Shown: positions 1,373 through 6,956 of the stretch, one piece after another
Layout of the letters: every line of letters starts with the position of its first letter
Numbering within the stretch: the first letter of the stretch is position 1
Translations under genes and position numbers: made by a program
Notes under the pieces: generated by a model
What the model saw: only the letters and a program-made list of their open reading frames with translations
The model's database searches: none
Told to the model about the DNA's origin: nothing
Origin: Candidatus Curtissbacteria bacterium RIFCSPLOWO2_02_41_11
Lineage (GTDB): Bacteria > Patescibacteriota > Microgenomatia > Curtissbacterales > GWA2-41-24
Length of the DNA: 48,903 bases
Assembly: GCA_001775055.1 (NCBI GenBank)
Contig: MFBU01000014.1
Coordinates: 1-48,903 of the forward strand
Reading direction: 5' to 3'

Positions 1373-1819
1373 CTACTTGAAGTTCTTAAACAAGTAAAGA
1401 CATTCTTTGAGGGAACTTATTGTAAAGTCAGGTTTCTGAAATTTATTTTGGGGCAGTTCATTTGCAAATTTTCCCTGTTTTAACCAAACTGTTCTTGCTC
1501 CTAGTTTCTTACCTACTTCTAACTCGGATCTAACTCTATCACCTACAAAAAAGACTTCCCTCTTTTTGTTTAAGGGGATAAACGGTTTATAAACTTCGAC
1601 ATTTTTTTCTGTATCGACGAAAACAATTTTTTTTAAAAAATTTCCAACTTGAAGCTTTTTTACTTCATTGGCCATGTCTTTTTTGCCTTTTCCTACTAAA
1701 ACAACCGGAATACTTTTAGCTTTGAGAAGTTTCAATAAACTTACTGCCCCTTTTATTAACTTTTTGGTATCAGGATCGTAGAGTGTTCGTTTCCAATCAA
1801 AAATGACTAATTTGGGCAT
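1373..1819 (-). CDS. HAD-superfamily protein with altered motif I
   Basis: A 148-residue protein starting at MPKLVIFDWKRT; I chose ATG 1819 because HAD proteins normally begin just before motif I. A longer frame to 1873 would overlap the upstream gene. Motif I has the nucleophile Asp8, but the usual acid/base Asp two residues on is Lys10. Motif II reads LVGKGKK, without the usual Ser/Thr. A candidate motif III lysine is K78 (YKP), and motif IV is VGDR at 92-95. A phosphotransferase fold is clear but ordinary phosphatase chemistry is doubtful. It lies 4 nt after the stop of the histidine-phosphatase/ATP-grasp gene and is probably in one transcript with it. Confidence 0.75.
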   Translation of the reverse strand: MPKLVIFDWKRTLYDPDTKKLIKGAVSLLKLLKAKSIPVVLVGKGKKDMANEVKKLQVGNFLKKIVFVDTEKNVEVYKPFIPLNKKREVFFVGDRVRSELEVGKKLGARTVWLKQGKFANELPQNKFQKPDFTISSLKECLYLFKNFK

Positions 1820-1823
1820 TTTT

Positions 1824-4103
1824 TTATATAGGATGTGCTGAAACCGCAGTGTTAATGCTACCTGTGGATGCATGAATATAGTTAGTGTTTTCGCATCCTG
1901 TAGCTTTTATAGCTAACATTTGTCCAGCTGATTCCCCAATCATGGCAAAGTAAGGTGTAATTCTTATCCTTGCCTCCATTGGTATTGGCTTTCTTGAGCC
2001 TTTTTCTTCATAAATCAGTGGTCTTTTTTGTCCTTCCATAAATTCCTGAATGATGTAGAGGGAAGAATTGTCACTACTTGCTGCTGACAACAACCTTGAG
2101 GCTTCAGCTTGGGACTTTTCATGCAAGAAATTAACTCCTTCTCCCCAAGAACTTCCATGGCCGAATCCCGATTTTTTGAGAACATAACGGCGCATCGATT
2201 TAGAAAGGTCAGCTAAGTCAATTGAACTAGTGACGCCATTTGGTAATTGTCCAGCGAAATATTCTTCCTGGCCTACTATCCAGGTTGGGGGAATGGTTTT
2301 CCTAAGACGATCAACAGTTGATGTTCCAAGTCTTTGGATGAAAAATGGTTCTAGTCTACTATCCCAAATCAAAGCAAGAAGTGCTTTTTCCTCCATGTAT
2401 GGGGTCAGGGAAGGGGTAACATTTAGATCATCGAGAACTCTGATTACTAGATCATGAATAAATAAATCGTTTAGTGCTTCATAAAGGTAGAATCCTCTAT
2501 ATAAATGGATCGGTGAAACACCTACTAAGGTGTCAATATGCGCTGCATTCCATTCTCTTTGAACTGATGACAGAATTTCTCTTGCTAGGAATTGTAGTTG
2601 TCCTGCGTATGATGCTGTATTTTGGCTATAAACAATCTGGCCTCTATTGGTAGTATGATCCCTTAAGAATTGGCCAAGGATACAACTCGGGACCAAGGTT
2701 TGGAAACCTACCTCCTCATAAGCACGGTTTAAGAGTTCTGCTAGTGGGAGACCAAAGGGTGATGTTTCAATTTCACAAATCGAGAAGCCATCTTTGGTTA
2801 TAATCAAGTCTGGTCTAATAAAGAGATAATTGGTCCTTCTTGCCTTTTGCAAATAATCAGGTTTGCCTCTATTAAGCAGGTTTGCCACGCGGTCGTCTAT
2901 ATTAAATAGTTCGTTGCAAGCATTCATAAATGCTACGATATCTTGTCCAATTGTCAAAATTTCAGATGCTTCTTCATTTGTGAGAATGAGGGGTTCTGGA
3001 GATACAAGAAAAGGAATTTTTTCTTCGGTTTCATATTCGCTTCTTCGAACTTTGTACCATTGATAACCCTCACCCAATTTTTCGAGTATTTTTCTCATGT
3101 CCTTTCTTTTGATGGGTTTTGGTTTTTCAGTTTCTCCCAGAACGCCTCTTTCGAGAATGAGGAAATTGTCGCAACCAATGGCGATCATACTCATCTCTGG
3201 AAGACGAGTTGATGGGTCAGCAAGTTCTTTTGCTTTGTTTAGAACTTCGGATAATTGTTGACTGTGTGTAAGTGCTATAAAGAGGCTATTACCAGTTGGA
3301 TCATCTTTTTGGTTATAGAGATAACTGATTGAATCTTCTATTGTTTTTGATGGTCTTTGACCATTTCGTGTTGGTTTACAGAGTTTGTCAATGAGTTTTG
3401 GTTCCCAAGGCATAAAGCCTGAAGGAACATCAGCTAAAATTTGTTCTACGGTTACACATGGATCATCGCCTTCATCTTTGTAAGTTATACAAGTTAATCC
3501 TTCGTCTATGACGATTGTAGAATTTGGTGCCATTTGTTTAATCACTCTTGCTATTTCAAAAGCGCGTGCATTTTCAGAAGAAAAGATTTTTATATCTTTT
3601 CCAGTTCTTGCACTGAGGTAACAAAGGATAAATCCGGTTGCAAATACTTCGGCCAAACTTTTATTAGTTATAAGATCCATTCTATTAAAAGGGTTTTGCA
3701 TCATCCTAATTTTTCTTAGATCAGCTCTGGGAATTGTAAAAACCCATTCTGGCGGGCTTTGCTCGGCATGTCGAATTACAATAAGCTTGTTACCTAGACT
3801 CTGAGTTGCAGAGGTGAGTTGTTCAATTTTCTCGGGTTTTACTTGATCTGGGGTTTGACCGTTTGGTTCTATTTTTAATGATTGGAAGATAGATATAGCA
3901 AGTTCGTTAGCAAGGCTTGCTGCTTTTGTAGCATCTAATTCGCCAAGGTGCAGTAAATCAAGAACATTTCTGTCCTTAAATTCCCTTAAGGCATTAAATG
4001 CACTATAAAGGCGCAGGTCTAGCAATTCGGTTTGAGGACTTTCCGATAAAGGAAGACCTACTACAGTGCGTTCTACCATGCTTGACAAGTCATTATTATA
4101 CAC
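1824..4103 (-). CDS. Histidine phosphatase / ATP-grasp fusion protein
   Basis: A 759-residue protein of two enzyme halves. Residues about 105-310 carry histidine-phosphatase signatures: RHAE at 111-114 (catalytic His112), SSENAR at 175-180 with the second Arg180, and the second His280 in LTHSQQ. Residues about 365-750 resemble ATP-grasp ligases of the glutathionylspermidine-synthase-like type: RPDLII and CEIETSPFG (430-451), the nucleotide-binding stretch VLKKSGFGHGSSW (641-653), IIQEF (684-688) and ARIRITPYF (711-719). The GTG at 4103 gives the longest frame; ATG 4079 (residue 9) is an alternative, and neither has a clear Shine-Dalgarno. The substrate is unknown. It lies directly upstream of a HAD protein and is divergent from an unknown gene at 4326. 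Confidence 0.75.
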   Translation of the reverse strand: MYNNDLSSMVERTVVGLPLSESPQTELLDLRLYSAFNALREFKDRNVLDLLHLGELDATKAASLANELAISIFQSLKIEPNGQTPDQVKPEKIEQLTSATQSLGNKLIVIRHAEQSPPEWVFTIPRADLRKIRMMQNPFNRMDLITNKSLAEVFATGFILCYLSARTGKDIKIFSSENARAFEIARVIKQMAPNSTIVIDEGLTCITYKDEGDDPCVTVEQILADVPSGFMPWEPKLIDKLCKPTRNGQRPSKTIEDSISYLYNQKDDPTGNSLFIALTHSQQLSEVLNKAKELADPSTRLPEMSMIAIGCDNFLILERGVLGETEKPKPIKRKDMRKILEKLGEGYQWYKVRRSEYETEEKIPFLVSPEPLILTNEEASEILTIGQDIVAFMNACNELFNIDDRVANLLNRGKPDYLQKARRTNYLFIRPDLIITKDGFSICEIETSPFGLPLAELLNRAYEEVGFQTLVPSCILGQFLRDHTTNRGQIVYSQNTASYAGQLQFLAREILSSVQREWNAAHIDTLVGVSPIHLYRGFYLYEALNDLFIHDLVIRVLDDLNVTPSLTPYMEEKALLALIWDSRLEPFFIQRLGTSTVDRLRKTIPPTWIVGQEEYFAGQLPNGVTSSIDLADLSKSMRRYVLKKSGFGHGSSWGEGVNFLHEKSQAEASRLLSAASSDNSSLYIIQEFMEGQKRPLIYEEKGSRKPIPMEARIRITPYFAMIGESAGQMLAIKATGCENTNYIHASTGSINTAVSAHPI

Positions 4104-4325: not shown

Positions 4326-5384
4326 ATGTCACTGGCTGAAAGAGTTGAAGTCGGAGTTAGAGATAGAGATTACAATGTCTATTTTTACCCGTTAGGACAA
4401 GAAGGGTTAGTACGATATTTAGAAGAAAAGTGCCGTCCTCTTTTCGGGTCTGATGTCTATTATGATGCCGAGGGTACTATCTTTTATAGAACATGGCGCG
4501 ATCTTCCAAGAAAAGGATTTCAGCCAGATAAACATGTTTTAGTCTCCCGACTTCCTCCGCGAGCTGATATTTCTGCCCCGTATACACGCTATCAAGATCT
4601 TAAAGTGATGAGGATTCACCAGGTAAGAAAAGACGATGGCAGTGTTGAAGCAGCTATCCGGTCTATTGACCATACTCTTGAGGGAGAAAGAGGTAAAGAG
4701 AGAGATCAAGCAGCGGCTGTCAAATACAGAGCAACTGAATTACTTGATCTTTTTGGCGGAAAGAGTTTTACAGAAATTAGCCAGGATGAATTTAAGACAG
4801 AGAGAGACAAAACCTATGCCCTTCTTGCCAGAGTTGGTCTTGATCCTGAGGCCGTGGTTAACCAACTAAAGCAAAGGATGAGTAAATGGTTAACCAAAGG
4901 CAGTTTTGGTAGAGATTCCACAGGAAGACTAAACCGATTAATTACTACCCAGGCATTAAGCGCTGCACACAGAAGAGCCATAATGAGAGAAAGAGGCATC
5001 GGAGGACCGATTGTAGGGAAATTCGTCAGAATGCGAGAGGCGCTTACCTTTGAAAGGGAATTTTGTCGCACAATTTTTCAAGATGTGACCGCTCACCTGC
5101 GTCCAGAGGCAATGCCGTCCCACATGCTGTTTAAGTATCCCACCAGGCGTCCTGGCAACGTAGGGATTGTACGAGGAATGATTCATACTATGTGTTTTCA
5201 ACTGGGACTACCACATGTCAAAACCTATCGGACTATAGGAAGGCAGGTGGAGGTAATATTGGCAGAGGTGGAAGAATTACTCAGACAAGGTAAACGGGCA
5301 GAGATAGTACAACGTGGCTTGTTCCCACAGGCTTATCAGCTTTTAGTAGATGAGTTGGGAAAGCGCCAAGATATTTATCCTTAA
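4326..5384 (+). CDS. Unrecognised 352-residue basic soluble protein
   Basis: I do not recognise this protein. It is soluble, rich in Arg and Glu, has no membrane segment and no obvious nucleotide-binding loop. The C-terminal half (residues about 190-300) is especially basic, with many Arg in the stretch running through LNRLIT, HRRAIMRERG and FKYPTRRPG, which would suit nucleic-acid binding. The start is ATG 4326, preceded by an AT-rich leader without a good Shine-Dalgarno. It is divergent from the histidine-phosphatase/ATP-grasp gene and shares the intergenic inverted repeat, so co-regulation is possible but unproven. Base composition resembles its neighbours. Confidence 0.65.
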   Translation: MSLAERVEVGVRDRDYNVYFYPLGQEGLVRYLEEKCRPLFGSDVYYDAEGTIFYRTWRDLPRKGFQPDKHVLVSRLPPRADISAPYTRYQDLKVMRIHQVRKDDGSVEAAIRSIDHTLEGERGKERDQAAAVKYRATELLDLFGGKSFTEISQDEFKTERDKTYALLARVGLDPEAVVNQLKQRMSKWLTKGSFGRDSTGRLNRLITTQALSAAHRRAIMRERGIGGPIVGKFVRMREALTFEREFCRTIFQDVTAHLRPEAMPSHMLFKYPTRRPGNVGIVRGMIHTMCFQLGLPHVKTYRTIGRQVEVILAEVEELLRQGKRAEIVQRGLFPQAYQLLVDELGKRQDIYP

Positions 5385-5403
5385 TTCATTTTAAAAAATA
5401 ATA

Positions 5404-5409
5404 TATAAT
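5404..5409 (+). promoter_or_regulatory. -10 box placed for a leaderless start
   Basis: TATAAT at 5404-5409 ends 8 nt before the ATG at 5418. No Shine-Dalgarno is present in the AT-only stretch between. Transcription would begin at or within a base or two of the start codon. Confidence 0.5.
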
Positions 5410-5417
5410 CTAAATTG

Positions 5418-6956
5418 ATGGTGCAAAAATACTGCCCCAATTGCGGTCATAAACTTCAGGCGAAAGCCAAGTTCTGCGACAACTGTGGTCAAGAAACCGG
5501 TACAGATGCGCCGGCTGAAAAGCCCAAGAGAAGGACAAATTGGGGCGTATTATTTTTTGTTTTGGCCATTGTTTTTTCAGGTTTGGGGACGATTGCTTCA
5601 TCATCGCCTAACAAGAGTGGCCAACAGGCAGCCTCAGTATTTTTTGTAGTAGGCGGTTTTTTGTATTTGGGTGCGGTTTTGGCGTTTTTGCGTTGGCTTT
5701 TTAGGAAAAATAAGAAGTTAACCATTGCCCTTCTGGTCGCTTTGATAATTCTGTCGAGCTTCACTGTCGTCTATTACCAGACAAAACAGGCCTATTTATC
5801 GCAAATTTCGGCAATTGAAGATATTGGAGCAGAAATTGCCTACGCCAAATCTGTTGGTGATGATCTTGTCGCCGGCAGAAAGGTCGCGAATGCGGGAATC
5901 GTCTTAGAAGACAACGGTTTTGGTGATGTCTTGGCACAAGAGAAGATTACAACCACGCTGCAAGTTCGCAGCAAATTAGAAAGAGAGTCCAACAAGATTA
6001 AGACAAAAAGGGTAAAGTCTGAAATTGAGCCCTATCGAAACTCCGTTGCCACATGGTCATCGGCACTTCTTGATGCCTCAAACTTTAAAAACCCCCAGTC
6101 ACTCACACGTGAGGAAAGAGCGACATGGCAAAAATTGCCCGAAACCCCTGCGGTAGTTTCAATGAATCTGAGGGACGATCAGCAAACAGGTGCACTTGAC
6201 TCAGTATCTTCGCGCATAAAACAACTCCAAAGTTCAGGCGATCTGGCGATAGCCGGTAAAGATCAATCGTCCATGCGCCTTGTTGCCTCTCGCGCCTTGA
6301 TGCAGTCTAATTTTGTGGAAAGCCTGACTGTTGCCAATCCAAATATTTGCTCCAAGCGAGGGTGTGCACCGGAGGTTAAGAGTTTTGTCGGCGGGGTATA
6401 TCGAAGCGCCCACAATTATGTTGTCGGCAATCAAAGTGCGGCAGCGGCGGAGTGGGACAAAACTTGGGATACACCGCCGGAAATCATCGCAGGAGCAGGA
6501 ACACCACTTGGAGGTTTGGGTATCACCCAAGGATCGCCAGATCCGACTCCTCCTCCCAACAAACCGACAAGAACAGCATCGGTTAGCCCTGATTATAAAC
6601 CGCGGCAGGGAGGAGGAGCCTCGTGGGATGGTACTTATTCGTCTACTGCCAATGTAAGTTGCGATACTGCCTCCAGTGACTTTGCCGATACCTTCGCCAA
6701 CTCGTCATTCGGCAACTTTGAGGTGCGGGGAAATAAGATCCTTGGCGGCGCGTTGGAAATTGCGATCGATTCGAGCGGCCATGCAAGTTACAACGCCAAT
6801 ATCGCTGGGTTTAATGTTACTTCTGATTACTACTTTGTCCAGACTGGAGGCGGAGGAGGAGTCGCAGTATCCGGAAACTTTTCGCTATATGGGGGGGCAG
6901 AAGGAGTAAGTGTGTCCTGTAGCGGCGATTTCTCAGGAAGCCGAATCTCTTTGTAA
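5418..6956 (+). CDS. Zinc-ribbon membrane protein with large extracytoplasmic region
   Basis: The protein opens with a zinc ribbon of two CxxC pairs (YCPNCG and FCDNCG) in the first 25 residues. Three hydrophobic segments follow at roughly 43-60, 72-95 and 102-122. A long polar region (about residues 130-370) then contains helical stretches and two cysteines (NICSKRGC). A Pro/Gly-rich linker precedes a C-terminal beta-rich domain of about 110 residues with two further cysteines. Starting at ATG 5418 rather than TTG 5415 fits the -10 box spacing. This is probably a surface protein with a cytoplasmic zinc ribbon; the function is unknown. Confidence 0.8.
   Translation: MVQKYCPNCGHKLQAKAKFCDNCGQETGTDAPAEKPKRRTNWGVLFFVLAIVFSGLGTIASSSPNKSGQQAASVFFVVGGFLYLGAVLAFLRWLFRKNKKLTIALLVALIILSSFTVVYYQTKQAYLSQISAIEDIGAEIAYAKSVGDDLVAGRKVANAGIVLEDNGFGDVLAQEKITTTLQVRSKLERESNKIKTKRVKSEIEPYRNSVATWSSALLDASNFKNPQSLTREERATWQKLPETPAVVSMNLRDDQQTGALDSVSSRIKQLQSSGDLAIAGKDQSSMRLVASRALMQSNFVESLTVANPNICSKRGCAPEVKSFVGGVYRSAHNYVVGNQSAAAAEWDKTWDTPPEIIAGAGTPLGGLGITQGSPDPTPPPNKPTRTASVSPDYKPRQGGGASWDGTYSSTANVSCDTASSDFADTFANSSFGNFEVRGNKILGGALEIAIDSSGHASYNANIAGFNVTSDYYFVQTGGGGGVAVSGNFSLYGGAEGVSVSCSGDFSGSRISL

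Follow-up and report, generated by a model that had tools for sequence, protein, structure and literature searches.

Among described enzymes, a precedent for a chain with both an ATP-grasp domain and a histidine phosphatase is PPIP5K, whose ATP-grasp kinase is opposed in activity by its phosphatase (PMC11836120); PPIP5K, Vip1 and Asp1 are the inositol pyrophosphate kinase-phosphatases (PMC11836120; PMC9765450). PPIP5K is eukaryotic, and has an N-terminal unpermuted ATP-grasp kinase followed by a C-terminal phytase-like phosphatase. A joined ligase and hydrolase is also found, by annotation, in Escherichia coli Gss, which combines the synthetase GspS with an amidase. The ATP-grasp fold of Gss, YgiC and YjfC is circularly permuted, as it is in eukaryotic glutathione synthetase, and the characterised relatives of this permuted ligase fold form an amide bond via an acyl phosphate.

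The protein described here resembles PPIP5K, Vip1 and Asp1 in that a single chain carries an ATP-grasp domain together with a histidine phosphatase. It combines the phosphatase partner of PPIP5K with the ATP-grasp type of Gss, and in domain order and sequence it is like neither. Its domain order is the reverse of that in PPIP5K, the ligase has the permuted, glutathione synthetase-type fold and the phosphatase is of branch 1, which places it outside the PPIP5K family, while the partner of the Gss ligase is an amidase and not a phosphatase. An open literature search returned no described bacterial fusion of an ATP-grasp enzyme with a histidine phosphatase. The preliminary description knew of no described pathway with this architecture; no characterised enzyme with the fusion turned up here either, but for the domain pair PPIP5K/Vip1 is a described precedent.

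The window, i.e., the whole stretch of 48,903 nucleotides that was analysed, comprises positions 1-48,903 of contig C14, in an assembly of 1.08 Mb. By open-frame reading, the minus strand at 1824-4103 is one unbroken frame of 759 aa, which starts at a GTG or, eight codons on, at an ATG at residue 9 (751 aa). The features are listed in window coordinates, with the members of each family in which a residue is kept:

1373..1819, minus strand: HAD-fold protein, 148 aa, with FDWKRT in motif I (the longer ORF matches Pfam Hydrolase_like at 6.5e-8)
1824..4103, minus strand: fusion gene, N-terminal histidine phosphatase and C-terminal circularly permuted ATP-grasp ligase (open frame; second full-length copy in genome G698)
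3144..4016, minus strand: histidine-phosphatase half, residues about 30-320 (AlphaFold2, and Foldseek against the PDB)
3768..3773, minus strand: Arg111-His112, RHG-type catalytic motif (LIVIRHAEQ); Arg in 6/6 members, His in 5/6 (Asp in G706)
3564..3566, minus strand: Arg180 (SSENARA motif), invariant in 6/6 members
3264..3266, minus strand: His280 (ALTHSQQ motif), invariant in 6/6 members
1827..3101, minus strand: permuted ATP-grasp half, residues 335-759 (AlphaFold2 and Foldseek)
2766..2816, minus strand: R430-P-D432...E444-x-E446, predicted metal/acyl-phosphate site, matching R-x-D...E-x-N of GspS and YgiC
2385..2387, minus strand: Lys573 (MEEKALLALIW), predicted ATP-binding Lys, in 8/8 members, matching NKAxLPxLW of GspS/YgiC
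2175..2177, minus strand: Lys643, predicted ATP-binding, ahead of a Gly/Ser-rich loop (VLKKSGFGHGSSW), in 7/8 members
1962..1964, minus strand: Arg714 (ARIRITPYF), in 7/8 members
4326..5384, plus strand: basic protein, 352 aa, of no known family (no Pfam match; NCBIfam none better than 0.085)

The 759-aa protein and its separate halves gave no usable match to Pfam, NCBIfam or the PDB sequences, and both folds were recognised via predicted structures, not via sequence libraries. Relatives were gathered from whole genomes of the host's class (sizes about 0.3-2 Mb), and a small alignment of them was used for each half in AlphaFold2. The genome sizes, that of the window's assembly included, would be consistent with the candidate phyla radiation. 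That phosphatase and ATP-grasp domains lie on one polypeptide, as had been proposed for 1824-4103, is borne out by the single frame and by the AlphaFold2/Foldseek results for both halves. No relative of the fusion was detectable in phage records, plasmid records or viral contigs. A match in Chitinophagaceae (L002) was discarded as a chance match, its gene reading as a signal-peptide-peptidase (S49-type).

The model of the N-terminal half (pLDDT 80, pTM 0.80) has its top Foldseek matches in the PDB with RosC, a riboflavin-pathway histidine family phosphatase and mycobacterial GpgP (E 5e-7 to 6e-6), and also matches phosphoserine phosphatase and PGAM5 (E up to 5e-5). At E <= 0.001 there are 113 PDB chains, and the best 50 of the 113 are mainly phosphatases and mutases of the superfamily. 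His112, Arg180 and His280, named in the preliminary description as a complete active site, sit precisely at the positions given there, with Arg111 preceding His112, and the set of four residues is complete in five of the six members (both fusions, G767, G751 and G132). The fold and the R-H...R...H set are common to the branch-1 histidine phosphatases (RosC, GpgP Rv2419c, novel-type PSP, PGAM5), from which the half differs by a helical N-terminal extension, by the family-specific residues C205, Y208, W233 and D239, and by the failure of Pfam His_Phos_1 (PF00300) to match any of the six members, even at E 10. A profile containing the half does find a genuine PF00300 domain in the distant genome G324 (E 1.6e-4), which lends independent support, at the level of sequence, to its predicted identity as a histidine phosphatase. 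Since one failed library model weighs less than fold and catalytic residues, we still place the half in branch 1, where model and sequence support a distant histidine phosphatase. One stand-alone relative, in G706 (L030:4752-5681), has RDG for RHG and is probably inactive or altered.

The C-terminal half, previously called ATP-grasp-like, does fold as an ATP-grasp in its model (pLDDT 80, pTM 0.86), and the label can be refined to the circularly permuted glutathione synthetase/GspS type. Over its entire length it matches glutathione synthetases, GspS/Gss, YgiC and YjfC (Foldseek E 4.5e-11 to 3e-5), and every one of the 45 PDB chains at E <= 0.001 is of the glutathione synthetase, GspS, YgiC or YjfC type. 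With eukaryotic glutathione synthetase (PDB 1m0w, 2hgs, 3kal) it has the permuted fold in common over the whole half (E about 1e-10, TM about 0.6), although the identity is about 11% and E-x-E stands here for E-x-N; that enzyme also has no phosphatase partner, and the fusion was seen in no glutathione pathway context. The motif order R-x-D...E-x-[E/N], Lys, Lys, Gln, Arg is that of E. coli Gss and YgiC, and its R-x-D...E-x-[N/E] and K part is shared with YjfC as well. D432, E444, K573 and Q686 are invariant across all eight aligned ligase members, the D and E of the predicted metal site among them (8/8), while position 446 is E in six, D in one and N in one, the usual Asn of E-x-N being Glu in the close ligase family. 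As the profile-profile link to GspS/YgiC is weak (hhalign E 0.0028, probability 11%; CP_ATPgrasp_2 profile, E 0.05 in one member), the half was filed with the GspS family on fold and motifs. Its permuted type points to a C-N ligase and not to a kinase. Distant relatives of the ligase half also occur in long proteins of G081 (L031:3001-4911) and G780 (L041:2667-5063). A methyltransferase and a peptidase-like gene come after one of the two; after the other come genes of ornithine cyclodeaminase-like and peptidase-like type.

Among the 374 genomes of the class, the ligase occurs in five, the phosphatase in seven and both in three, and two of the 374 carry fusions. The second full-length fusion, in G698 from another family, has 752 aa, is 51% identical and has the linker in common. 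In G767 the halves are separate but linked, as divergent neighbour genes read from adjacent starts (417 and 300 aa). The ligase is found without the phosphatase in G754 and G008, and the phosphatase without the ligase in G132, G751 and G706; G716 has a broken phosphatase copy. The stand-alone forms indicate that the halves can act, or be lost, independently. The hypergeometric P for co-occurrence of the halves in the 374 genomes is 4e-5, but the fusions themselves account for two of the three co-occurrences, so that the counts are not independent. An assembly or gene-calling artefact that merged two adjacent genes might be suspected from G767, where the halves are neighbours, but it is refuted by the fusion in G698: two fusions from different families have the linker in common and neither is interrupted by a stop codon, and the G767 genes, being divergent, make fusion by read-through impossible. 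We give this explanation practically no weight; the fusion is real and conserved, yet rare.

In the phosphatase tree, both fusions group with the G751 protein (support 98/97), which ends within the linker; from these two features, it may be a former fusion that has since lost its ligase. This grouping may point to a single origin of the fusion, but the ligase tree shows no resolved branching. The genes around the fused and split loci vary between genomes and none indicates a substrate or pathway: a PfkB-type kinase adjoins the phosphatase in G132 and an M20 peptidase in G751, while cell-wall and sugar genes lie near the ligase of G008.

A more recurrent neighbour is the HAD-fold protein, reported in the preliminary description as following directly on the fusion. 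Its gene most likely does begin at ATG 1819, four bases past the fusion stop codon (less likely at the upstream ATG 1873). A HAD gene lies 2-4 bases after the ligase in three genomes (that of the window, G000, and G698 and G754), with products of 146-152 aa, the G698 and G754 copies being 49-51% identical to that of the window. More distant HAD members adjoin more distant ligase-like genes in G081, whose protein matches the ligase half at hhalign E 2.4e-5, and in G692, whose protein has motifs in common with it at a profile match that is not significant. The ligase gene of G008 overlaps with that of a different HAD, of ordinary type (FDFDGT).

The window HAD has the profile match (TIGR02253-like/Hydrolase_like), the nucleophile Asp8 and the GDRxRSE motif in common with the HAD superfamily, but it has Lys for the second Asp of DxD, and GKG for Ser/Thr in motif II. 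FDWKRT, with this same Lys and so without the DxD pair, is present in the window, G698, G754, G717, G627 and G059; in the wider subfamily, this position is taken by Phe, Gly or Asn. Because the second catalytic Asp is replaced, the protein is probably no ordinary phosphatase, and classical phosphatase chemistry appears unlikely for it. Two simpler schemes were ruled out: an operon of three catalytic phosphatase/ligase genes, by the missing second Asp, and a HAD strictly tied to the ligase, by the FDWKRT proteins of G627, G717 and G059, which have no adjoining ligase. Genes for EF-P, galU, a small membrane protein, the HAD, lgt and dksA (names read from translations) follow one another in both G627 and G698, and G698 additionally has the fusion gene, placed between those for the HAD and lgt. 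L025:4379-8380 and L060:2973-4760, in two genomes of one genus, have a common gene order with and without the fusion gene at this place and form a clean presence/absence site. In G686 (L068:40-3498), an Asp-less HAD relative is immediately preceded by a ribonucleotide reductase gene that contains a LAGLIDADG intein.

We put at about even chances that the 759-aa protein is bifunctional, with the permuted ATP-grasp ligase and the histidine phosphatase serving one undescribed pathway. The C-terminal half would most likely use ATP and Mg2+ to activate a carboxylate as an acyl phosphate, to which an amine would then be joined, and the N-terminal half would most likely dephosphorylate a substrate or product of the ligase's pathway via a phospho-His112 intermediate. 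Since relatives of the ligase make an amide via an acyl phosphate, in our model the substrate or product of the ligase bears a phosphate that the N-terminal half would remove. We infer catalysis by both halves, ligase over kinase chemistry, and the order of the two steps. The HAD-like protein is probably a third component; with its acid/base Asp missing, it may serve in binding and not in hydrolysis. It is a tentative step further, and one we hold less probable, to see phosphatase, permuted ligase and Asp-less HAD as a three-part module of small-genome bacteria that would make and then dephosphorylate an amide-linked metabolite or cell-surface precursor. A bacterium with a genome of roughly 1 Mb retains few dispensable genes, and a two-domain enzyme of dedicated function, linked to a HAD, suggests an unlooked-for metabolite. 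As the fusion links the phosphatase to a ligase family without a library match, and both activities are expected to belong to one pathway, the fused and split proteins give a direct handle on the substrate.

Other functions can be weighed against this bifunctional ligase-phosphatase. Two ideas of the preliminary description, a phosphorylated product that is formed and then dephosphorylated and a proofreading cycle, are conjectural. If a small molecule were phosphorylated by the ATP-grasp half and dephosphorylated by the phosphatase half, the protein would set the level of a messenger as a PPIP5K/Vip1-like switch, with two opposed activities held in balance by the fusion, and the same superfamily pair does occur in one PPIP5K chain (PMC11836120). 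This we judge unlikely: no PPIP5K or other kinase is among the significant solved matches of the C-terminal half, which is of the permuted GspS type, the domains stand in the opposite order, and the N-terminal half matches branch-1 enzymes whereas the PPIP5K phosphatase is phytase-like. A similarly low probability attaches to a phosphatase half whose role is chiefly one of binding or regulation, the ligase being the sole working enzyme; the replacement of the catalytic His by Asp in G706 and the partner HAD, also without one catalytic Asp, would agree with it, but Arg111, His112, Arg180 and His280 are intact in the five other members, both fusions included. Less probable again is proofreading, by which the phosphatase half would break down wrong or stalled acyl-phosphate intermediates of the ligase. 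The physical fusion of the halves and the joining of a ligase with a breakdown enzyme in E. coli Gss (synthetase plus amidase, by annotation) speak for it, but phosphatases without an adjoining ligase exist in G132, G751 and G706, and the PfkB-type kinase next to that of G132 is a poor fit to a dedicated proofreader.

The divergent gene on the other side of the fusion, put forward as coding for a basic protein of no recognised family, is present at 4326-5384, and nothing in Pfam or NCBIfam matches its product. It was not seen beside any related locus read and was therefore dropped as a partner; it probably lies outside the module. Within 4326-6956 of the window, the GC content is 0.40-0.50 over the genes for the basic protein and a zinc-ribbon membrane protein, vs about 0.37-0.40 over the fusion gene.

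A separate observation concerns a class I tRNA synthetase (IleRS-like, 1269 aa) of G324 (contig C8, L074:4444-8253), which has a complete branch-1 histidine phosphatase inserted mid-protein (PF00300, E 2.9e-37). A literature search found no description of a phosphatase insert in an IleRS-like synthetase, and the insert is possibly more striking than the fusion. With its flanks, it is present in 55 of the 57 genomes of the family of G324, and in G822 and G824 a second, weaker phosphatase match lies beside it.
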